A DNA stretch of 64,000 nucleotides from NCBI GenBank assembly GCA_947178105.1, contig CAMWXD010000009.1, positions 1-64,000 on the forward strand, written 5' to 3'. Below are positions 4,337 through 29,876 of the stretch, piece by piece; positions within the stretch are counted from its first letter, which is position 1; each line of letters opens with the position of its first letter. Source of the stretch: an uncultured Eubacterium sp. (GTDB lineage: Bacteria; Bacillota; Clostridia; Lachnospirales; Lachnospiraceae). The position numbers and the translations under genes were made by a program. The notes below the pieces were generated by a model. That model saw nothing but the letters and a program-made list of their open reading frames with translations, was not told the origin of the DNA and ran no database searches.

Positions 4337-6094
4337 ATGTTAAAATTATTCAAAAGCTTGAAAAAAAGTGAGTGGGTGCTGGCGTTTCTTTCTTTTCTGT
4401 TTATTGTGGTACAGGTGCGGCTGGAACTTACGATGCCGGAGTATATGTCAGAGATTACGATGCTGGTACAGACAGAAGGAAACACGATGGGAGAGATCCT
4501 GTCCGCAGGCGGGAAAATGCTTTTGTGTGCATTGGGCAGCCTTGCCGCATCTGTTGTGACTGCTCTTTGTGCGGCTAAGATTGCGTCAACATTTGGAGGA
4601 ACTTTGCGGGGAAACTTATTTCGGAAAGTGCAGTCCTTTTCTATGGAGGAAATTGGGCATTTTTCTACTGCAAGCCTGATTACGCGTTCGACGAATGATA
4701 TCACGCAGATCCAGATGCTGATTGCAATGGGGCTGCAAATGCTGATAAAGGCTCCGATTACGGCGGTGTGGGCAATCTGTAAAATTGCAGACAAGGAATG
4801 GCAGTGGACGCTTACAACAGGGATTGCCGTAATTGTGCTGCTGGCTGTTGTAGGAACCTGCCTGCTGTTTGTCATACCGAAGTTTAAGAAAATACAGGTA
4901 CTGACAGATGATTTGAACCGCGTGACCCGTGAAAACCTGACAGGGCTTCGCGTTGTGCGGGCTTATAATGCAGAAGCATATCAGCAGAACAAATTTGAAC
5001 ATGCAAATCAGGCGCTTACCGGAACAAATTTATTTGCGCATCGTGCAATGTCCTTTATGATGCCGAGTATCCAGCTTATTATGAGCGGCCTGTCTCTTGC
5101 AGTCTACTGGATTGGGGCAGTTTTGCTCAATCAGGCTGGCATGGCAGGAAAAATCAGCCTGTTTTCTGATATGATGGTATTTTCCCAGTATGCAATCCAG
5201 GTCGTTATGTCTTTTATGATGTTGATTATGATTTTTATGATTTTGCCGCGTGCTTCGGTTTCTGCAAAGCGTATCCGCGAGGTACTTGATACGAAGCCGT
5301 CCATTATGGATGGAATGACGACAGAAGGTGTAAAGGGAGCCACTGGGGAAGTGGAATTTAAGAATGTATCTTTCCGTTACCCGGATGCAGAGGAATGTGT
5401 GATAAAAAATATTTCATTTACAGCAAAGAAGGGGGAAACGGTTGCACTGATCGGCTCTACAGGCTGCGGGAAAAGTACAGTCATTCATTTGATTCCGCGT
5501 TTTTACGACGCTACCGAGGGAGAAGTTCTGGTGGATGGCATCAATGTACGAAACTATACGCAGCAAAGCCTGCGCAACAAGATTGGCTATGTATCGCAAA
5601 AGGCAATATTGTTTACGGGGACGGTCAAGTCCAATGTGGCTTATGGCGATAATGGAAGAAATGATACGTCTGATGAAGATGTAAAGGCAGCAGTTGCCAC
5701 GGCGCAGGCAAGCGACTTTGTGGAAAAAATGGAGGATGGCTATGAGGGGTATGTGGCGCAGGGCGGCTCCAATTTTTCCGGCGGGCAAAAACAGAGAATA
5801 TCCATTGCCCGTGCCATTGCGAGAAAACCGGAAATCCTTATTTTCGATGATTCCTTTTCTGCTCTGGATTATAAGACGGATCGTGTGCTGCGAAAGGCAT
5901 TGGACGAGACATGCCAGGATTCGACGCGGATTATTGTGGCGCAGAGAATCGGAACAATCCGTGATGCGGATAAGATCCTTGTCCTGGATGAAGGCAGGAT
6001 TGCCGGAATGGGACGCCATGAGGAGCTTATGAAAAATTGTGAGGTATATCAGCAAATTGCACTTTCCCAGCTATCAAAGGAGGAATTGGCTTAA
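4337..6094 (+). CDS. ABC exporter (TMD-NBD), heterodimer subunit 1
   Basis: GSTGCGKST, FSGGQKQRISIARAIARKPEILIFDDSFSALD; 6-TM exporter fold N-terminal. Confidence 0.9.
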   Translation: MLKLFKSLKKSEWVLAFLSFLFIVVQVRLELTMPEYMSEITMLVQTEGNTMGEILSAGGKMLLCALGSLAASVVTALCAAKIASTFGGTLRGNLFRKVQSFSMEEIGHFSTASLITRSTNDITQIQMLIAMGLQMLIKAPITAVWAICKIADKEWQWTLTTGIAVIVLLAVVGTCLLFVIPKFKKIQVLTDDLNRVTRENLTGLRVVRAYNAEAYQQNKFEHANQALTGTNLFAHRAMSFMMPSIQLIMSGLSLAVYWIGAVLLNQAGMAGKISLFSDMMVFSQYAIQVVMSFMMLIMIFMILPRASVSAKRIREVLDTKPSIMDGMTTEGVKGATGEVEFKNVSFRYPDAEECVIKNISFTAKKGETVALIGSTGCGKSTVIHLIPRFYDATEGEVLVDGINVRNYTQQSLRNKIGYVSQKAILFTGTVKSNVAYGDNGRNDTSDEDVKAAVATAQASDFVEKMEDGYEGYVAQGGSNFSGGQKQRISIARAIARKPEILIFDDSFSALDYKTDRVLRKALDETCQDSTRIIVAQRIGTIRDADKILVLDEGRIAGMGRHEELMKNCEVYQQIALSQLSKEELA

Positions 6095-8094
6095 TGAAAA
6101 AGAAAGAATATAAGGATTTTAGCGGAACCTGGAAAAAATTGCTCGGTTATTGCCGCAAATATACGGTTGTGTTTGTAATTGCCATTGTCTGTGCAGCGTC
6201 TGGAACAGTGCTTACACTGGCTGGCCCTGATCAACTATCTGAAATGACAGATGTTATTTCAGATGGGATTGCGCCTGATACAGAAAAGCTGGAAGAAATT
6301 ATGGATATGATTTCAAAGCAAATTTCTGAAAATATGGAAACCGCAGTTTCAGCCGTATATACGGACATAGTTGTTGACGGTGTTACGATTTCAGGGCAAG
6401 ACCAGTCTGCTATGATGGATATTTTGTCTGAAACTGATATGGAGGATACAGAAGCTGCTTTGGAGGCATTTGATAAGCTTCCGGATTCTATTTATGGGTT
6501 GATCAAGCCGTCGATTGATATGGACAGGGTGTTTGATATAGGGTTTCTGCTGATTGCCTTTTATGCACTTAGTTATATCCTTTCGACCGTTCAGGGCTGG
6601 ACGATGGCGACGGTCACGCAGCGGGTTTCCAAACAGATGCGCTCAGATATTTCATGCAAGATCAACCGGCTTCCCATGTGGTTTTATAACCGTACGACTA
6701 CCGGAGATGTGCTGTCACGGGTGACAAACGATGTGGATACCATTAGCCAGTCGCTTAATCAAAGTATCGGGAATCTGATCTCAGCCGTTGTGCTCTTTTT
6801 TGGAAGCTTTTTTATGATGCTTGTTACCAATGGCTGGATGACGTTGGCGGCAGTAGCGTCCAGCCTGCTTGGGTTTGCGATTATGCTTGCCATTATGGGC
6901 AAGAGCCAGAAATACTTCACACGCCAGCAAAAGCATCTTGGCGAGCTGAATGGGCATATTGAAGAGATCTATGCCGGCCATACAGTAGTAAAAGCTTATA
7001 ATGGGGAAGCAAAAGCGCAGGAGATGTTTGATAAAATGAACAGCAATCTCTGTGAAAGCGGGTTTAAAGCCCAGGGGCTGGCGGGGCTGATGATGCCGAT
7101 TATGAGCTTTATTGGAAATTTAGGCTATGTGGCAGTCTGTGTTGTCGGCGGAGCAATGGCGTTAAATGGCCAGATCAGTTTTGGAGTGATCGTAGCATTT
7201 ATGATGTATGTCCGCTATTTTACACAGCCGCTGGCGCAGATTGCACAGGCAGTACAATCGCTGCAGTCCGCCGCAGCCGCCGGAGAGCGTGTGTTTGAAT
7301 TTCTTGAGGCGGAGGAGATGGAAGATGAGAGCGGTAAAATCGAAACACTGACAAAGACTGAGGGAAAGGTAGAATTTGAGCATGTAAGATTTGGTTATGA
7401 AGATTCCGATGTTACGGTGATTCACGATTTTTCTGCTAAGGCGCAGCCTGGACAGAAAATTGCGATTGTAGGGCCGACAGGAGCAGGAAAAACTACGATG
7501 GTAAATCTGCTGATGCGGTTCCATGAAATTCAGGGAGGGGAAATTCGGATAGATGGAATACCTACAAATCAAATGACACGGGAAGCTGTACATTCGCAGT
7601 TTTGTATGGTATTGCAGGATACATGGCTCTTTGAAGGAACTGTGCGTGAAAACCTGGTATACTGTGCAAAGAATGTCAGTGACGAGAAAATGACGGCGGC
7701 GTGCAGGGCTGTCGGATTGGATCATTTTATTCGTACACTTCCAAAAGGGTATGATACGGTGCTGAATGACCAGGTAAATCTGTCCCAGGGGCAGAAGCAG
7801 CAGCTTACGATTGCCCGCGCGATGATTGCGGATAAATCGATCCTGATTTTGGATGAGGCGACATCTTCTGTGGATACCCGTACGGAACAGATCATACAGA
7901 CAGCGATGGATCAGCTTATGGAAAATCGTACCTCATTTGTGATCGCGCATCGGCTCTCTACAATCAAAAATGCCGATTTGATACTTGTTATGAAGGACGG
8001 GGACATTATTGAAAGCGGGAGCCATGAGCAGCTTCTCCGCCAGGGCGGTTTTTATGCGGAGCTGTACAACAGCCAATTTGAGCAGGCATCGTAA
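6094..8094 (+). CDS. ABC exporter (TMD-NBD), heterodimer subunit 2
   Basis: GPTGAGKTT, LSQGQKQQLTIARAMIADKSILILDEATSSVD; overlaps previous CDS by 1 nt. Confidence 0.9.
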   Translation: MKKKEYKDFSGTWKKLLGYCRKYTVVFVIAIVCAASGTVLTLAGPDQLSEMTDVISDGIAPDTEKLEEIMDMISKQISENMETAVSAVYTDIVVDGVTISGQDQSAMMDILSETDMEDTEAALEAFDKLPDSIYGLIKPSIDMDRVFDIGFLLIAFYALSYILSTVQGWTMATVTQRVSKQMRSDISCKINRLPMWFYNRTTTGDVLSRVTNDVDTISQSLNQSIGNLISAVVLFFGSFFMMLVTNGWMTLAAVASSLLGFAIMLAIMGKSQKYFTRQQKHLGELNGHIEEIYAGHTVVKAYNGEAKAQEMFDKMNSNLCESGFKAQGLAGLMMPIMSFIGNLGYVAVCVVGGAMALNGQISFGVIVAFMMYVRYFTQPLAQIAQAVQSLQSAAAAGERVFEFLEAEEMEDESGKIETLTKTEGKVEFEHVRFGYEDSDVTVIHDFSAKAQPGQKIAIVGPTGAGKTTMVNLLMRFHEIQGGEIRIDGIPTNQMTREAVHSQFCMVLQDTWLFEGTVRENLVYCAKNVSDEKMTAACRAVGLDHFIRTLPKGYDTVLNDQVNLSQGQKQQLTIARAMIADKSILILDEATSSVDTRTEQIIQTAMDQLMENRTSFVIAHRLSTIKNADLILVMKDGDIIESGSHEQLLRQGGFYAELYNSQFEQAS

Positions 8095-8111
8095 GAAAGG
8101 AGCATGATGGC

Positions 8112-8738
8112 ATGAGGTGTAAATATCTCACGATTGAAAGGGAATACGGCAGCGGCGGGACAAAAATTGCCCGCCTGCTTGCCAGGCAGATGGGGATTTT
8201 CTGTTATGGGCAGGAAATTCTGGAGGAGGTTTCCAAGGAGAAGGATACTTCGGTCGAGAAAATCCAGTATTATGAGGAAACCGTAACGAACAGTTTTTTA
8301 TATTCAATTTATATGATTTCACAGATCACATCAGGCAAAAGCGATATGCTGACACAGGAGGGACAGATCTATGTGGCGGAACAGGCTGTGATCCGAAGGC
8401 TTGCCGCAAATAAACCGGCAATTTTTCTTGGCCACTGTGCTTCGGAAGCGCTGAAAGAATACGAAGGGGTGGTAAACGTATTTATTCGCTGTACAAATGA
8501 AGAGGCTAAAAGGCGGCGGATCGTGGATGAGTACAAGATACCAGAAGCTCAGGCAGACCTTATCCGGCGGAAATTTGACAGAAAACGTGCCAACTATTAT
8601 TCTGTAAATACCGGGAAAAAATGGGATCAGCTTAGGAATTATGATCTTGTTCTGGACAGTGGTAAACTGGGGGAGGATGCTTGTGTAAACATACTCAAAT
8701 CACTTTTACATCCTTCGGCTTTAGAGGAGGAATCTTGA
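8112..8738 (+). CDS. cytidylate kinase-like family protein
   Basis: LTIEREYGSGGTKIARLLARQMG N-terminus and R(K)xFDRKRANYYSVNTGKKW motif typical of the family. Confidence 0.8.
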   Translation: MRCKYLTIEREYGSGGTKIARLLARQMGIFCYGQEILEEVSKEKDTSVEKIQYYEETVTNSFLYSIYMISQITSGKSDMLTQEGQIYVAEQAVIRRLAANKPAIFLGHCASEALKEYEGVVNVFIRCTNEEAKRRRIVDEYKIPEAQADLIRRKFDRKRANYYSVNTGKKWDQLRNYDLVLDSGKLGEDACVNILKSLLHPSALEEES

Positions 8739-18552: not shown

Positions 18553-19191
18553 CTATGGCTTATTCCTTTTTAAATTTATGTATGATTGCAATGCAAGAGT
18601 ATTTTTGCTAAAATAACTACAGATAAACTTACTTGATTGAAGATATAGGCCTGGTATTAGCAGAACCGCTGCGGCAAACATTGCAAATAACAGAATCGTT
18701 CTTAAGCGCACAAAATATATGGCACAAAGCGTCAGTAAAACGGATAGTGTGCGCAGCCGTTTTTTCTGTAGTCGGCTGTATGCTTTAGAATAAGGATTAT
18801 TTGCAGTTCCTCTTGGTATATGTATAAAAAACAACAGGTTCGTAAATAAGCAGATCATCAGGCATACTGTCGGATCGATTTGTATGGCCTGAGCTGCCTT
18901 TCTGCCGCCAACCAGAATAAAAGTGGTTGCAGAGATGCATTTGAGCATGTGATCAAAATGAAAGCCGCCGGCAATGATACGGAGTAATCCAAAGATACAG
19001 AATAACAGAAACGTTTCCCGAAAAGAGCCGATGAAATAGAATATCCATAAAATAAAAAATGCCAGTAAAAGATTGTAAAGGATCGTTTCCAGTGCAAAAT
19101 GCATCTGCAATCTTTTTATTTTATCGCATTGTTTTTCTGGATCAAGAAAATGGATGATTTTTTCGCTTAATCTATTTAATAAGGATTCCAT
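18553..19191 (-). CDS. agrB: AgrB-like peptide-processing membrane protease
   Basis: IAGGFHFDHMLKC gives the His/Cys catalytic spacing (H+7=C); multi-TM. Confidence 0.85.
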   Translation of the reverse strand: MESLLNRLSEKIIHFLDPEKQCDKIKRLQMHFALETILYNLLLAFFILWIFYFIGSFRETFLLFCIFGLLRIIAGGFHFDHMLKCISATTFILVGGRKAAQAIQIDPTVCLMICLFTNLLFFIHIPRGTANNPYSKAYSRLQKKRLRTLSVLLTLCAIYFVRLRTILLFAMFAAAVLLIPGLYLQSSKFICSYFSKNTLALQSYINLKRNKP

Positions 19192-19307
19192 AATAACCTG
19201 CCGCCTGTCTTTGTATTTGCTATCAGTATATGACAAAATGAAAAAAAGCCCGAATAATTTCTTAAACGCAGTAAAAAAATACGTAAGCGTAAGGAGTGCT
19301 TCATCAG

Positions 19308-20039
19308 ATGATAGATGTGTATATTTGTGAAGATAATCTTGAACAGAGAAAGGTAATTGAACAATATATTAGTTCTGCTATTTTGATTGAGGAATATGAT
19401 ATGGCGCTTAAAATAGTGTCAGGAGATCCCGAAAAGATTCTGGATACGGTAAAACAATCCGAAAATATGGGGCTCTATTTTCTGGATATCGAATTGCAGG
19501 CAAATATGAATGGCCTGGTACTTGCAAACAAAATACGGGAATATGATCCCAGAGGATTTATTATATTTATAACTTCTCATTCAGAAATGTCTTTTCTAAC
19601 TTTTAAATATAAAGTGGAGGCACTTGATTTTATCTTAAAAGACCATCCGCAGCAATTACAGCAGAAGATCTGTGAGTGTATGGAGCATGTTGCAAAAAAA
19701 TACAGTAAAATTACACGCGGAAACGGGAAAACCATTACGATTACAAGGAGCAGGCGAAGCATTACGCTGGAATATCATGAGATTTTGTTTTTTGAGACTT
19801 CGTTAAATGAACATAAGATTATCGTACATACGAAAAATAAAAGCATCGAGTTTTTCGGAAAGATGAAAGAAATCGAAGATGAAGTAGGAAAGGAATTTAT
19901 ACGGTGCCATAGAGCGTATCTGGTCAATAAGAAAAATATAAAAGAAGTGAATTATGAGGATAAATATATTGTTATGAAAACAAATGCTCGCTGTCCGATT
20001 TCATACCGAATGCTTGGGAAGATAAAAAAGATGATATAG
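19308..20039 (+). CDS. LytTR-family response regulator (AgrA-like)
   Basis: VYICEDN...LYFLDIEL receiver; FIRCHRAYLVNKKNIKEV LytTR domain. Confidence 0.9.
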   Translation: MIDVYICEDNLEQRKVIEQYISSAILIEEYDMALKIVSGDPEKILDTVKQSENMGLYFLDIELQANMNGLVLANKIREYDPRGFIIFITSHSEMSFLTFKYKVEALDFILKDHPQQLQQKICECMEHVAKKYSKITRGNGKTITITRSRRSITLEYHEILFFETSLNEHKIIVHTKNKSIEFFGKMKEIEDEVGKEFIRCHRAYLVNKKNIKEVNYEDKYIVMKTNARCPISYRMLGKIKKMI

Positions 20040-20082: not shown

Positions 20083-20145
20083 TACGTTTATGAAATAATC
20101 ATTTGCTTTTAGGAAAAATTATGTGCGTGTTAAAATTATGTGGTA
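20083..20145 (+). promoter_or_regulatory. candidate LytTR-controlled promoter of agrD
   Basis: TACGTTT (20083) ... TTTGCTT (20102) ... GTTAAAATTATGTGGTATTGT; similar pieces occur upstream of 22108. Confidence 0.35.
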
Positions 20146-20185: not shown

Positions 20186-20362
20186 ATGAATAAGCTAAGA
20201 AAAATAATGATCAATACGTTATGTGAGGTGGGAAAGAATGGTGTTGGTAAATCAACAGCATGGGGAATATACGAGATAAAAATTCCCGATGAACTGAAAA
20301 AGGAATCAAATAGATTAGGTTCAATAAATTCAGATCATAAAGATAAAGTTTCTTACGATTAA
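20186..20362 (+). CDS. agrD: candidate AgrD-type autoinducer precursor (58 aa, not in ORF track)
   Basis: MNKLRKIMINTLCEVGKNGVGKSTAWGIYEIKIPDELKKESNRLGSINSDHKDKVSYD; C-terminal YEIKIPDELKK aligns with the AgrD tail (e.g. DEVEVPKEL); RBS aagggagag; between the AgrA-like and AgrC-like genes. Confidence 0.7.
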   Translation: MNKLRKIMINTLCEVGKNGVGKSTAWGIYEIKIPDELKKESNRLGSINSDHKDKVSYD

Positions 20363-20389
20363 TTTTGGAAACTGCCTGTAAATTAGAAT

Positions 20390-20471
20390 AAATCTTCGGG
20401 TGTGCATAACAAACTTGCCAAAGATATTAGCTACGAAATATCTTTGGCATTTCATGTATAATCGAAGATTT
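20390..20471 (+). terminator. nested inverted repeat after agrD
   Basis: aaatcttcg...cgaagattt enclosing tgccaaagatat...atatctttggca. Confidence 0.6.
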
Positions 20472-20576
20472 ATTATATACTGGATTTTTATGTGGTAAAT
20501 AGTTGTAAAGATGAAATATTCTCAATAAAAAAGCTTTCGTTAGGATGTATTTGCGTATAAAATGGGGTGTAGATAA

Positions 20577-21878
20577 ATGAATTTACAGATTGTATTTTTT
20601 AGTATACTAATATACTTATTAATTTTTAATAGATCACTGACATTTCGGTTGACAATTGTCAATAATATAATTATTATAGTAATATTGGCTATTTATATGC
20701 TTAAGATTAATCCTTTATTGAGTTCTTTGTTTGTATTACCAATGTTTGCAACAGTATTGATATATATATGCTGGCTGAAAAAAGAAGATGCGCTATGGAA
20801 TGTTTTTCTGGTTCTGTTTTCCTATATGATAGTTGTAATTGTGGATAATGTAGCACATTTTATTTGGAGAGTGGCAGGCGTTGAACCAACAGGATATGTT
20901 CTAACTTATAATATTTATATGATGGTTGAACTTCCTATATTTTATATACTATGCGGAATTATTTCAAGAAAAGTGGTGGAAATAAAAAAGAAAGAATACT
21001 TGACTCTGTCACCGAAAATCATTGCAGTAGTAGGATCATATTTATTGTTATGTATGCTTATTTTCGCAATCCATATAACCATAACGAATGAAGCTGGCTC
21101 TCCACCGATGCTTTTATTGTGCAGTGTAGGATTATACATTACATATTTTGTGCTGACATTTATTATGATTACAATGATTGTCAGAGAATATGAGGTAAAC
21201 GCCAAAATAACAATGAAGCAAGATTCTTATGATAATCTAAAGGAATATATGACGCAAATTGAAAATTTATATCAGAATATCCGTGTATTTCGGCATGATT
21301 ATGCAAATATTATGGCAAGTATGTCTGTCTACCTGAATAATAACGATTTAGAAGGGCTAAAAGCATATTACGAAAAAAATATCTTTCCGATCAATCGTTT
21401 ATTAAATAAAGAAAAGGATACAATAAGCAGGCTGAGCAATTTAGAGAGCATTGAGTTAAAAGGGCTGATGTCCGTAAAAATAAACTATGCATTGGAATTA
21501 AATATTGCCGTCAATCTGGAAATAACAGAACGAATAGAAAACATAAATATGAATACTCTTGATCTGGTAAGAATTACAGGAATCCTGCTGGACAATGCGA
21601 TCGAAGCCTGTCAGGAGTGTGCAAACCCTTGTATTGGGATCGGTATGATCAGGACAGATCAAGGAGTTACGTTCATTGTACGGAATACTTATGTAAAAAA
21701 AGAGCTTGATTACAGCAGCCTTGGAAATCTGGGTATTACATCCAAAGGCGAGCGACGGGGAATTGGACTGTATAACATTAGGTCTATCATAAAAAAATAT
21801 AACAATGTCGTCCTGGATACGGAATACGAAGGTCAATATTTTACACAGATGATGGAAATCTATGAAGAAGGACAGTAA
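20577..21878 (+). CDS. GHKL sensor histidine kinase (AgrC-like)
   Basis: N-terminal TM region; FRHDYANIMASMSVYL; LLDNAIEAC; RRGIGLYNIRSI. Confidence 0.9.
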   Translation: MNLQIVFFSILIYLLIFNRSLTFRLTIVNNIIIIVILAIYMLKINPLLSSLFVLPMFATVLIYICWLKKEDALWNVFLVLFSYMIVVIVDNVAHFIWRVAGVEPTGYVLTYNIYMMVELPIFYILCGIISRKVVEIKKKEYLTLSPKIIAVVGSYLLLCMLIFAIHITITNEAGSPPMLLLCSVGLYITYFVLTFIMITMIVREYEVNAKITMKQDSYDNLKEYMTQIENLYQNIRVFRHDYANIMASMSVYLNNNDLEGLKAYYEKNIFPINRLLNKEKDTISRLSNLESIELKGLMSVKINYALELNIAVNLEITERIENINMNTLDLVRITGILLDNAIEACQECANPCIGIGMIRTDQGVTFIVRNTYVKKELDYSSLGNLGITSKGERRGIGLYNIRSIIKKYNNVVLDTEYEGQYFTQMMEIYEEGQ

Positions 21879-21931: not shown

Positions 21932-22107
21932 TTTCATTTCTGATTTGTATCAAAAAATACGTTTGCGACATGTAGCTTTTGCTTAAACGTAAATGATCTT
22001 GCTTAGAGAACGCGTATAAGAAAAATTTCTATCTATTAAGATTAAATAAGATCAATTGTTAAAACATGTGGTAAAGTAATCTCATCAAAACAATACAGGA
22101 GAGAAAA

Positions 22108-23345
22108 ATGAAAATACAAAAAATTTAGAAGTACTACAATTTCGAAATAAAGTTGTATTGGCAAACAGAATCAATGGTACATGGATTCGAATTTCAGAGG
22201 AAGTATATGGGCTGCTGCAAACTTTTTTAAAAGCAGATGTTGATTGTCCAGATGAAGCAATCGAATTTTCAAATAAAGAAGACAAATTATATTTTGAGAA
22301 GATTATTGAAGAAATGCATCGGTGTTCTATGCTTGCTGATGGAAAAAAGTATTTGGAACAGGAAAAGTCGAATATGGTTATTTTTGAGACTACAAACCGA
22401 TGTAATCTTCACTGTGCACATTGCTGTATGTCGGCAGGAGATCTTGAGGCAAAAGAATTCGATACGAATACTATGATACAAATCTTAGACAAATGTATAG
22501 AATGGAAGCCGCATTTTATTGCGTTAAGTGGCGGGGAACCATTGCTTAGAAAAGATTTTTTTGAAATTTTGCAATATTTGAGGCAACATTTTTCTGGTAA
22601 GATTGGAATCTGTACAAATGCAACCTTAATTACTGAAGATAATGCGGGCATGATCTGTACAAATGTAGACCAGCTTGATATCAGCATTGATGGGGTGGAT
22701 GAAGAAACCTGTTCCTTATATAGAGGAAAAGGTGTATTTAAAAAAGTTGTGAATGCCATAAAGCTGCTACAGTCAAAAGGATTTTATAATATATCGTTAT
22801 CGATGGTTTTTTCAGATAAAAATGAAATATTGGAACATGCATTTAAACAATTGAACGAATCCCTTGGCACGAAACCTGTTTATAGAATGTTAGCTGAAAA
22901 AGGCAGAGCAAAAGAAAACAAAGAGGTTTTAGCAACTAAAAACTATGAAGCATCTTATGTTCCTAAATCCTTTATTGAAGACATGAGTGATGATACTCCG
23001 TTAGGTGCAAGTGAGTGTATGGCTGGTAACCATTCGATACTGATTCGCTATAATGGAGATATCTATCCTTGCCCATCTTTTGTATCCTATAATGAATTGT
23101 GTATGGGTAATATCTGTAAGATAGATGATATTAACAAAATTGTAGGTAAAAACATGCACTTATTGATCAAAGAGAAGCTGTACAAGGCAAATCGGGCAAA
23201 TAGTAAAGCATGTCAGGACTGCCCGGTAAAACTTTTTTGTTTTAGCTGTCCAGGAGATCCAGAACGGTTTTCGGCAGAAGAGTCATTTCAGAAATATTGC
23301 AGCATTAGTAAGCCTGTATTGATGAACAGAGTATGGGGTGTATGA
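22108..23345 (+). CDS. radical SAM/SPASM peptide maturase with N-terminal PqqD/RRE-like region; apparent 5' frameshift
   Basis: ETTNRCNLHCAHCC (CxxxCxxC), C-terminal CQDCPVKLFCFSCPGD; VVLANRINGTWIRISEEVYGLLQ RRE-like. RBS and ATG at 22108 are out of frame with the body; the track starts at TTG 22158. Confidence 0.75.
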
Positions 23346-23752
23346 TGAATAACTATACTATCTGGTTAACGGCAGATTGCAATCTAAGATGCAGCTATTG
23401 TTACGAAGGTACAAATAAAAGACGATTATCGATGAATCAACAAATGGCGGATCGTGTTGTAAAATTTATCACTAAGACTTTTTCAAAAGAGGAAGAGGAA
23501 ATCTGCATTGATTTTCATGGTGGAGAACCTTTGTTAAATTTTGAAATATTACAGTATCTAGTTGAAGTTTTGAATAAACGATACCCAGATAAAAGAAAAA
23601 ATTATTCCATAACGACTAACGCAACGCTGCTGAACGATAAGAATATTGATTATCTGGTAGAAAATATAAAAAATATATCGGTTAGTATCGATGGAACCAG
23701 GAAAAAACATGATAAATTTAGGGTATATCCAAATGGAAGTGGAAGCTACGAG
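23336..23752 (+). pseudogene. truncated second radical SAM enzyme
   Basis: TIWLTADCNLRCSYCYEGTNKRRL...DFHGGEPLLNFEIL...SISIDGTRKKHD-type N-terminus only (about 137 aa), no SPASM domain. Confidence 0.7.
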
Positions 23753-23812
23753 CAAAGGGCATTTGGTTGTTCTTTGCTATTTTTAAAATGGGGCATGGAA
23801 AGAAGTGAAAGG

Positions 23813-24094
23813 ATGAAGAATACACCCATAGTAATAGCAGTCATTGATTCAGGCATTGCTTTACAAGCCGCGAATAGTATGAAATGTAACATAAAGAGAT
23901 ACGAGATTGCAAAAAATGAAGACAGACTGGCATTTCGGCTAGGCGGCGAAGATCAAAACGGTCATGGATCCTTGTGTATTTCAGCAATCTATAAAGAATG
24001 CAGGCAAATAGAGATTATTAGTTTAAAAATATTTGATAAGGAATTGAAAACATCAATTGACTATTTGGAGTATGCTCAGCAGCAGCGACAATGA
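23813..24094 (+). pseudogene. truncated S8 subtilase
   Basis: IVIAVIDSGI (Asp) and DQNGHGSLCISAIY (His) motifs, no catalytic Ser region; own ATG and RBS (gaaagg). Confidence 0.65.
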
Positions 24095-25692
24095 CTGGAA
24101 TTGTTGCAAAAATGATGGTCGCTCATCCTGAAATGGATAAAAACGAGGTTATGAAACAGTTAAACAAAATATCTATTTTAATGGTTATGTCTTTTTTGCA
24201 ATCATGTTTAAAATATGCAGTCGCTATCATTCACACAAAAATAAAGAAAAATTATACTTACCATATTAAAATGAAAATATTTGAACATATTACAAAACTG
24301 TCTGGTTCATATTTTACCGATAAGCAGACAGGCGATCTGATTAAAATACTTGAGAGCGATGTGTATGCGATTGAAAATGCCGGTATAGATTTAGCTGTTG
24401 ATATTTTCTTTAATCTGGTTACGAGTTTATGCGCAATTGCACTATTATGGACAATTAACAGCAGGCTATTAATCATTGTCTTGTTTATGGAAGGCGGAAT
24501 TGTATTCGTTCAAAACTTTCTGATAAAAAAAATGTATCAAAAAGTAGAAGCATTAAGAAAAATTTCCGGCAAGTCAATGGGATTCACTGAGGAGTATATT
24601 TCTAATATTTTAAATCTGATCATAGCAAAAGCGGATAAAATTTTTATGAGAAATTTTAGTTCTATAGAAAGGATGAGTATTAATCAATCATTAGCTTATA
24701 AAAGATATGCGGAGGGCGGAAAGCAATTTAATCAGTTTATGAATGCATGTATTATCAGTGTGATATATTTGATTTCTGGAATGTATATTATTCAGGAGAA
24801 AATGACATATGGCACTATGGTTGCATTTCTTCAGTATGTGTATTTAATTATTAATCCTTTTTTGTTAATTATAAATTCATATTCTCAAATACAAAATATG
24901 CTTGTTTCCATTCATAAGGTTTGTGAGGTTTTAGAAATTCAACCACTCGCAGAAGGTAAAGAAATTCTAAATGCGGCAAAGTTAACAGTAGAGTTTGAAC
25001 ATGTTGATTTTGGTTATCGGGATAACGAACTAATTTTGCAGGATTTATGTATGACATTTGAACCTGATAAAATAACCGCATTAATTGGAGAGAGTGGAAG
25101 CGGAAAATCTACAATTTGTAAACTGTTGTATCGTTTGTGGCAGGTTCATAACGGTGAGATCAAAATTAATCATATTGCGTTGGCTAATTATAACATTGTT
25201 GATTTGAGAAAAAGCATTGTAATTGTAACACAGGATGTTGTATTGCTTAATGATACACTTAAAAATAATATTGATATGAATCAGGATCACAGTTTGGAGC
25301 AGATCTGGAATATATGTGAAATTGTACAGTTAAAAGATTTTATTTACAAGTTACCCAATGGCCTCGATGAACAGATTGGTGAAAATGGAAATAAATTGTC
25401 TGGAGGACAAAAACAAAGAATTGCACTTGCACGCACGTTATTAGAAAATTCATCTATTATTGTGCTTGATGAGGCCACGTCTGCATTGGACAACGTGACA
25501 CAGGAGATATTAATGAAGGAAATAGAGCCTATATTGAGGAAAAAAACAGCAATTGTAATTACGCACAGATTATCTTCAGTAAAATGTGCGGACTATATCT
25601 ATGTTTTTGGAGATCAAGGTGTAGCAGAACAGGGAACGCCCGATTACTTAAGCGAACATGGAGTGAGGTATCAGCAGTTGCAAAATAAATGA
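24091..25692 (+). CDS. ABC transporter (TMD-NBD), probably 5'-truncated
   Basis: GESGSGKST, LSGGQKQRIALARTLLENSSIIVLDEATSALD; first TM helix appears missing. Confidence 0.75.
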   Translation: MTGIVAKMMVAHPEMDKNEVMKQLNKISILMVMSFLQSCLKYAVAIIHTKIKKNYTYHIKMKIFEHITKLSGSYFTDKQTGDLIKILESDVYAIENAGIDLAVDIFFNLVTSLCAIALLWTINSRLLIIVLFMEGGIVFVQNFLIKKMYQKVEALRKISGKSMGFTEEYISNILNLIIAKADKIFMRNFSSIERMSINQSLAYKRYAEGGKQFNQFMNACIISVIYLISGMYIIQEKMTYGTMVAFLQYVYLIINPFLLIINSYSQIQNMLVSIHKVCEVLEIQPLAEGKEILNAAKLTVEFEHVDFGYRDNELILQDLCMTFEPDKITALIGESGSGKSTICKLLYRLWQVHNGEIKINHIALANYNIVDLRKSIVIVTQDVVLLNDTLKNNIDMNQDHSLEQIWNICEIVQLKDFIYKLPNGLDEQIGENGNKLSGGQKQRIALARTLLENSSIIVLDEATSALDNVTQEILMKEIEPILRKKTAIVITHRLSSVKCADYIYVFGDQGVAEQGTPDYLSEHGVRYQQLQNK

Positions 25693-29135: not shown

Positions 29136-29876
29136 ATGTTAGGGAGGGGTATTATGAGAAAGAAAAGACTTTGTGCAGTACTGCTATTGTGTATGGTTTT
29201 CTTATGTGCCTGCGGAAAGGCAGAGAAAAAAGAGCAGGCGGAAAATCTGGAATTTCCGGGGTTATCTTGGGATATGACACCGGAAGCTGTTTTAAAAGCA
29301 TTTCAGACTGCAAAAGAGAATGCTGTTCTTTATGATGAAAACAGCCTCACAACAAGCTTTGGCATTACGGATCTCGAAGTGTTCGGACAAAAAGCAGAAC
29401 GTGTTTTCTTTTATTTTATAGATTATGCTTCCTTATGCCAAATGCCGGGACAGCAGGCGGGAGAGCAACGTCTGTGCCAGATCCGGGCGTATTATCCGCA
29501 GGATGCAGACCTGACGCCTGTAAAAGAGAAACTGGAGCAAGCTTATGGCGCAACAGTTTCGGAATATTATCCTTTTAGCAGAGCGGTTACTTTGGAAAAT
29601 GACAGCTCCATGAGTCTGAAGCCTTTGAAAGAGTCTGAATCGCTGAAATATTGGGGCACCAGTATCCTGGGAGATATCCTTCCGGAAAATGGGCTTGACA
29701 CTTTTCAAACGTACTGGAAAAACTGCCGGAGCGGATTGAATGAGGAGAATTGGGATTTTTTTAAAGGCCATGCCAGAATGGTTTCACTCATTTTTTCCGA
29801 CCAGGAAAGTGAAGAAGGAAAAGGTGTGGAATGGGATGCGCATAATCTTGCTGTATATCAGATATTGAATAGGTAA
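29136..29876 (+). CDS. putative lipoprotein
   Basis: LLLCMVFLCACGKAEKK lipobox; likely start at MRKKRLC. Confidence 0.7.
   Translation: MLGRGIMRKKRLCAVLLLCMVFLCACGKAEKKEQAENLEFPGLSWDMTPEAVLKAFQTAKENAVLYDENSLTTSFGITDLEVFGQKAERVFFYFIDYASLCQMPGQQAGEQRLCQIRAYYPQDADLTPVKEKLEQAYGATVSEYYPFSRAVTLENDSSMSLKPLKESESLKYWGTSILGDILPENGLDTFQTYWKNCRSGLNEENWDFFKGHARMVSLIFSDQESEEGKGVEWDAHNLAVYQILNR

Follow-up and report, generated by a model that had tools for sequence, protein, structure and literature searches.

A probable six-residue serine lactone from a complete agr system whose AgrD propeptide escapes the standard AgrD model

In the 64,000-nucleotide stretch of DNA analysed here (the window), a short ORF between an agrA-like and an agrC-like gene has the appearance of agrD without a cysteine at the ring position. 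This raises the question of whether it encodes an AgrD propeptide and, if so, which residue closes the ring of the signal. A previous examination of the letters alone (the sequence-only reading) had described an RBS-preceded ORF of 58 aa at this place, with its sole Cys at position 13 and Ser23, Thr24 and Ile28 as the residues relevant to the ring, and had favoured a five-residue lactone closed by Thr24 over a six-residue one closed by Ser23. The ORF was found exactly as described, and its translation places all four residues as stated.

The agr locus and its surroundings

The ORF starts with ATG and its product is MNKLRKIMINTLCEVGKNGVGKSTAWGIYEIKIPDELKKESNRLGSINSDHKDKVSYD, in which the string NGVGKSTAWGIYEIKIPDELKKESNR is present. 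The genes of the locus and the parts of the precursor are the following:

18553-19191, minus strand: agrB, cysteine-protease processing enzyme (PF04647, E 1.1e-22), with catalytic-type His78 and Cys85 (GGFHFDHMLKC)
19308-20039, plus strand: agrA-like response regulator, receiver plus LytTR (NF046049, E 1.5e-66, below cut-off; PF04397, PF00072)
20186-20362, plus strand: agrD precursor gene, 58 codons, RBS AAGGGAGAG upstream; its orthologue in the congener G003 is under purifying selection
20186-20251, plus strand: N-terminal leader, residues 1-22, basic and hydrophobic, without significant amphipathicity in the window
20252-20269, plus strand: predicted ring, residues 23-28 (S-T-A-W-G-I, Ser23 to Ile28); first position Ser or Cys in 13/13 members of the AgrB clade described below
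20270-20359, plus strand: C-terminal recognition tail YEIKIPDELKK..., which AgrB presumably removes, with P34 conserved and an hhalign match to classical AgrD tails
20577-21878, plus strand: agrC-like receptor histidine kinase (NF046015, E 2.6e-59 over residues 11-424, below cut-off; PF14501)

All four agr genes are intact, agrB and agrD being encoded on different strands at a distance of about 1 kb. AgrB reaches 80.8 bits against PF04647 (cut-off 23) and has the catalytic His-x6-Cys arrangement, while the other two genes encode the receiver-LytTR regulator and GHKL kinase of an AgrA/AgrC pair, with scores under the NCBIfam AgrA and AgrC equivalog cut-offs. The source assembly is fragmented, with an estimated contamination of 8%, and the agr locus lies intact on a 93-kb contig. 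A genome-wide search returned no second AgrB. A cysteine-containing AgrD, which the sequence-only reading had named as a possible refutation, was also sought, and neither the surroundings of agrB nor the rest of the genome yielded a credible one; a weak match (C23:8503, E 0.04) was discounted, as it contains a stop codon. A scan of the genome contigs with AgrC gave one relative only, which is the same contig as that of the congener G009, and AgrB had no match among the PDB sequences searched.

The ORF is a real gene, conserved and coding in the congener G003, where the orthologue MKKLKKQIINILCEVGKNGVGKSISWGIYEIKVPMELKKERQMNNSILSNR is located between the same agrA and agrC. Comparison of the two over 43 codons gave 18 identical, 13 synonymous and 12 non-synonymous codons, and base differences at codon positions 1, 2 and 3 numbered 8, 7 and 21. 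The hydrophobic moment of the leader was matched by 2227 of 20000 shuffles in the window copy (p ~0.11) and by 196 of 20000 in G003 (p ~0.01). The tail is charged and its P34 nearly invariant (family alignment A2), as expected of an AgrD, and the family profile, of which the ORF itself is part, matches it with an E of 3.6e-26. A small ORF beside agrB, agrC and agrA was found in the window, in G003 and in the relatives of the clade. Given the position of the ORF between agrA and agrC, the agrB gene 1 kb away and the bipartite site that agrB and agrD share, it encodes the AgrD propeptide, and the agr system is complete (agrB, agrA, agrD, agrC). Conservation, genomic context and AgrB clade thus support the AgrD candidate of the sequence-only reading, which had made conservation in related genomes one of its checks.

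The loci nearest to this one are damaged, a point against the lactone system proposed below. In G003 (L021, G003:C7, reverse complement 7019-8318) agrC is split by a frameshift and agrB, agrA and agrD are intact. In G009 (L022, G009:C74, reverse complement 6628-6717 and 5480-5740) agrD encodes MGEKLKKIFIEILCKAGKYSINKSAAFGM, and its stop codon falls precisely where the ring is predicted to end; a decayed agrB remnant is found between intact agrC and agrA, and agrD retains its upstream AgrA-type site. That a linear signal made without AgrB, with its free C-terminus directly encoded, took the place of a six-residue serine lactone in this lineage is a speculation to which we give little weight.

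Three further elements were identified in the intergenic regions of the locus:

19259-19290, minus strand: bipartite AgrA-like operator ACGCTTACG-N12-GCGTTTAAGAA, upstream of agrB; 2 mismatches in the G003 counterpart
20084-20115, plus strand: bipartite AgrA-like operator ACGTTTATG-N12-GCTTTTAGGAA, upstream of agrD; 0 mismatches in G003 and 3 in G009
20384-20482, plus strand: long hairpin between agrD and agrC (z -5.3; G003 counterpart, z -5.6)

The consensus ACGYTTAYG-N12-GCKTTTARGAA, which precedes both agrB and agrD, was derived from these two sites, whose zero mismatches are therefore by construction; what is informative is its presence at both promoters. It has 2 exact matches in the 4.95-Mb genome, both at agr; all other sites have at least 3 mismatches, and those with 3 are no commoner than in a reversed control. 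LytTR regulators usually bind a direct repeat with a period of about 21 bp, and the resemblance of the shared site to such a repeat suggests that AgrA could autoregulate agrB and agrD through this putative operator. A wider AgrA regulon was sought genome-wide with the strict site, and nothing beyond the two agr sites stood out; a possible third site, at around 22011-22046 and ahead of the radical SAM genes, is weak and lies in a stretch that aligns to G003. The hairpin is possibly a terminator or attenuator. Its G003 counterpart has equal position and outer arm (AAATCTTCG/CGAAGATTT) and a different inner part, and no further copy was found in the genome.

Downstream of agrC, the radical SAM/ABC block at 22108-25692 looks damaged and is absent from G003. 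The radical SAM reading frame and the ATG at 22108 are in different frames, ORF 23333-24094 joins half a radical SAM enzyme to a subtilase-like piece, and at the start of ORF 24091-25692 the end of a subtilase runs into an ABC exporter. The block showed no precursor peptide and may be a decayed RiPP-type cluster or a misassembly. Further on, a lipoprotein gene without Pfam match (29136-29876) has homologues on the flanks of the agr loci of G003, where there are two, and of G009, and may for this reason be part of an agr-linked cargo.

The residue that would close the ring

Cys-less relatives were sought with a four-sequence profile seeded with GKS peptides, which retrieved GKSFPIGMHE, GKSVVVGVYE, GKSIFWGVYE, GRSIPAGIYE and GKSMPWGMHE beside agr genes of the same bacterial family. 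Against the bias of such seeding, 109 AgrDs near AgrB genes were selected on the features of the tail only, with one genome per species and from the better-scoring AgrB matches. Positions were counted from the tail Pro, so that -10 is the place of Cys28 of S. aureus (published AgrD aligned on the tail); in the window AgrD, Ser23 is at -11 and Thr24 at -10.

Position -10 held Cys in 67 of these AgrDs, Ser in 28 and Thr in 3. Serine thus accounts for 28 of the 42 that have no Cys there, compared with a background of 3.9% Ser inside the ring (p 1e-29). Of the 14 AgrDs lacking both Cys and Ser at -10, nine have Ser and two have Cys at -11, versus 11 of the 95 others (Fisher p 4.8e-7, with the tail-only candidates L204 and L166 dropped as spurious; 3.8e-6 with them kept); the other three (L140, L155 and L198) lack both at -11 as well. 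The Ser23 position is invariant among the relatives except for its exchange with Cys, as in GKCMVPGL, while at the Thr24 position G003 has Ile, and the relatives show Ile, Val, Ala, Leu, Pro, Tyr, Phe or Met. The pairing of a Cys, or rarely Ser, nucleophile with a hydrophobic ring end, characteristic of AgrDs, is seen at the sequence level as Ser or Cys at -11 and a hydrophobic residue at -6. It is not the arrangement of the S. intermedius type, where a five-residue ring has Ser at the canonical -10. Cys13 was ruled out as nucleophile, being conserved within the genus only and demanding a ring of 16 residues.

The explanation that we consider probable is that the complete agr system makes a six-residue serine lactone, cyclo-(STAWGI), closed by Ser23 with Thr24 not acting as nucleophile. 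The lactone proposed by the sequence-only reading, with no Cys at the ring position, gains support from conservation, context, the AgrB clade and the Ser/Cys interchange at position 23, and the Ser23 ring that it gave as its second option fits the pattern of conservation.

Four other explanations have to be weighed against cyclo-(STAWGI). Ser23 could be the nucleophile with AgrB cutting one residue earlier, to give the five-residue cyclo-(STAWG) and a tail starting IYEIKIP. Five-residue rings are by far the commonest, several members have Gly at -7, and small ring-end residues are known elsewhere. Against this, the tail in the clade starts with [YHF][EQ] at -5/-4 like that of classical AgrDs, whose ring ends at -6, this last position is mostly I, M, V or L in the clade, and both Cys-11 members have an identical six-residue spacing. 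From this classical-type tail start and the hydrophobic residue at -6 we infer a cut after -6, and we regard the shorter ring as unlikely.

Comparably unlikely is that no macrocycle is formed, the signal being linear or the Ser merely a conserved leader or recognition residue. This would account for GKS being kept even where Cys comes next (G141, GKSCPAYF) and for the early stop of the G009 precursor, in a locus that retains agrC and agrA next to a decayed agrB. It does not agree with the enrichment of Ser at -11 specifically where -10 is neither Cys nor Ser, with the replacement of that Ser by Cys in two clade members, or with the intact catalytic residues of AgrB.

A Thr24-closed five-residue lactone, cyclo-(TAWGI), is what an ungapped alignment of the tail favours, since it sets Thr24 at -10, the Cys site of classical AgrDs. 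This was the preferred ring of the sequence-only reading, and it is very improbable: with Ile in its place in G003, variability in the relatives, Thr at -10 in only 3 of 109 AgrDs and the neighbouring Ser23 invariant except for Cys, Thr24 is ruled out as nucleophile by conservation. Just as improbable is a decayed, non-functional precursor that lost its cysteine, which the decay of congener loci (agrC frameshift in G003, agrB remnant in G009) might evoke, as none of the four window genes is damaged, purifying selection acts on the ORF, and relatives without the Cys are spread over about a dozen genera.

Two observations concern other AgrDs of the sample. Three of the nine rings with Ser at -11 hold a Cys elsewhere (SPICGL, SAIFCM, SYPLCA), and a smaller thiolactone is possible in these. 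In a second group (L050, L099, L164, L212, L127 and L116) Ser at -10 is followed by Cys at -9 (ASCVIM, TSCIGF); relatives have this Cys swapped for Gly, Ser or Trp (TSGIGF, ASSVVA, TSWVGL), which suggests that Ser, not Cys, may close the ring in this group.

The AgrB clade and its detection

In a tree of 109 AgrBs, the enzymes of all nine systems with Ser at -11 (S-11) and both with Cys at -11 (C-11) fall in one clade of 13 (support 99/88), which includes the window AgrB, in a tree with some long branches and a bootstrap not fully settled. Ser is at -11 in the remaining two members too (SSLAGL and SCPAYF), so that Ser or Cys opens the predicted ring in 13 of 13, Cys being found in G177 (GKCMVPGL) and G162 (CVVWIF). 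The sister lineages G140 (SVVVGV) and G177 (CMVPGL) differ by a Ser/Cys swap in the same column. None of the 109 AgrBs deviates in the catalytic His and Cys columns, and clade-typical columns include Thr144 and Asn147 (numbering from the upstream TTG), where other AgrBs have mostly N/H/S and K/R.

An AgrD HMM search had been suggested as a check of the ORF, and a lack of match as a refutation. No match was obtained with Pfam or NCBIfam, including TIGR04223, NCBIfam's AgrD subfamily definition; yet this is not a refutation, as the same models miss the relatives. None of six S-11/C-11 precursors, the window one included, passed the TIGR04223 cut-off (best 15.2 versus 19 bits), while the Cys-10 and Ser-10 precursors tried were detected. 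The profile of the S-11/C-11 precursors is, judged by profile comparison, homologous to classical AgrD (hhalign 95.3%, E 2e-8). Order- and class-level searches beyond the family gave chiefly -10 systems, with some Ser/Cys interchange (GSKS, GSKC), and a few C-11 rings outside it, such as SDKCFLIGFHEP. Our best reading is that cyclo-(STAWGI) is the product of an AgrB clade of Lachnospirales-type bacteria whose precursors fall outside the NCBIfam AgrD model; we infer this label from the genomes found alongside and from one relative, an uncultured Eubacterium sp. MAG. Because the standard model does not detect this clade, its signals are likely missing from the current annotation of gut-type bacteria.

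Proposed pathway and comparison with known systems

Gene, conservation, context, shared site, AgrB clade and the interchange at position 23 are observed; cleavage, cyclisation, export and signalling in the window system can be pictured by analogy. In S. aureus, AgrB acts through His77 and Cys84, with an acyl-enzyme preceding ring closure (PMC10482373). By analogy, the window AgrB (Cys85/His78) would cut after Ile28, releasing the tail and keeping the ring-end carboxyl as a thioester, which the hydroxyl of Ser23 would attack to give cyclo-(Ser-Thr-Ala-Trp-Gly-Ile). The leader would be removed by another protease, and the lactone would leave the cell and bind AgrC; phosphorylated AgrA would then drive agrB and agrD through the shared operator.

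The clade has its nucleophile one residue earlier than usual, mostly Ser, swapping with Cys between sister species. As the S. aureus AgrB enzymes are unable to process Ser-containing AgrD (PMC10482373), the related Ser- and Cys-type AgrBs offer a handle on how AgrB accepts an alcohol and sets ring size.

No report of a Ser-closed six-residue AIP was found in the literature searched, which covered few subscription papers. Serine lactones and a six-residue thiolactone are each known, and their combination appears unreported in that literature; the window signal nevertheless stands less alone than the sequence-only reading had proposed, with Ser at the canonical ring position in 28 of 109 same-family AgrDs.

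Among the known serine lactones (PMC12312760, PMC10301443), that of S. pseudintermedius/intermedius, RIPT[STGFF], also has Ser for Cys, and is made by AgrB and a demonstrated functional autoinducer (PMC12312760, PMC3673130); its Ser occupies the canonical Cys position of a five-residue ring, whereas that of the window is one residue earlier, in a predicted six-residue ring. E. faecalis FsrD/GBAP, QN[SPNIFGQWM], is likewise a serine lactone made with an AgrB-type enzyme (PMC7028047, PMC12312760), but with a nine-residue ring and fsrD in frame just downstream of fsrB. The C. difficile agr2 peptide, NSA[SSWVA], is another predicted Ser-closed clostridial AgrD (PMC12312760, PMC10301443), with Ser at the canonical -10 and a five-residue ring, and resembles instead the 28 AgrDs with Ser at that position. 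The clostridial agr system of C. acetobutylicum, [CVLVTL], shares with the window the six-residue ring size (predicted for the window) and the separation of agrBD and agrCA into more than one operon (PMC12312760, PMC10301443), but its ring is a Cys-closed thiolactone, and its LanM-like gene was not seen beside the window locus. Finally, the classical Lachnospiraceae AgrDs, such as NSACVFLGYQPKMP of the congener G004, have a homologous precursor profile and the same tail logic, and differ from the window precursor in their Cys at -10 and in being detected by TIGR04223.
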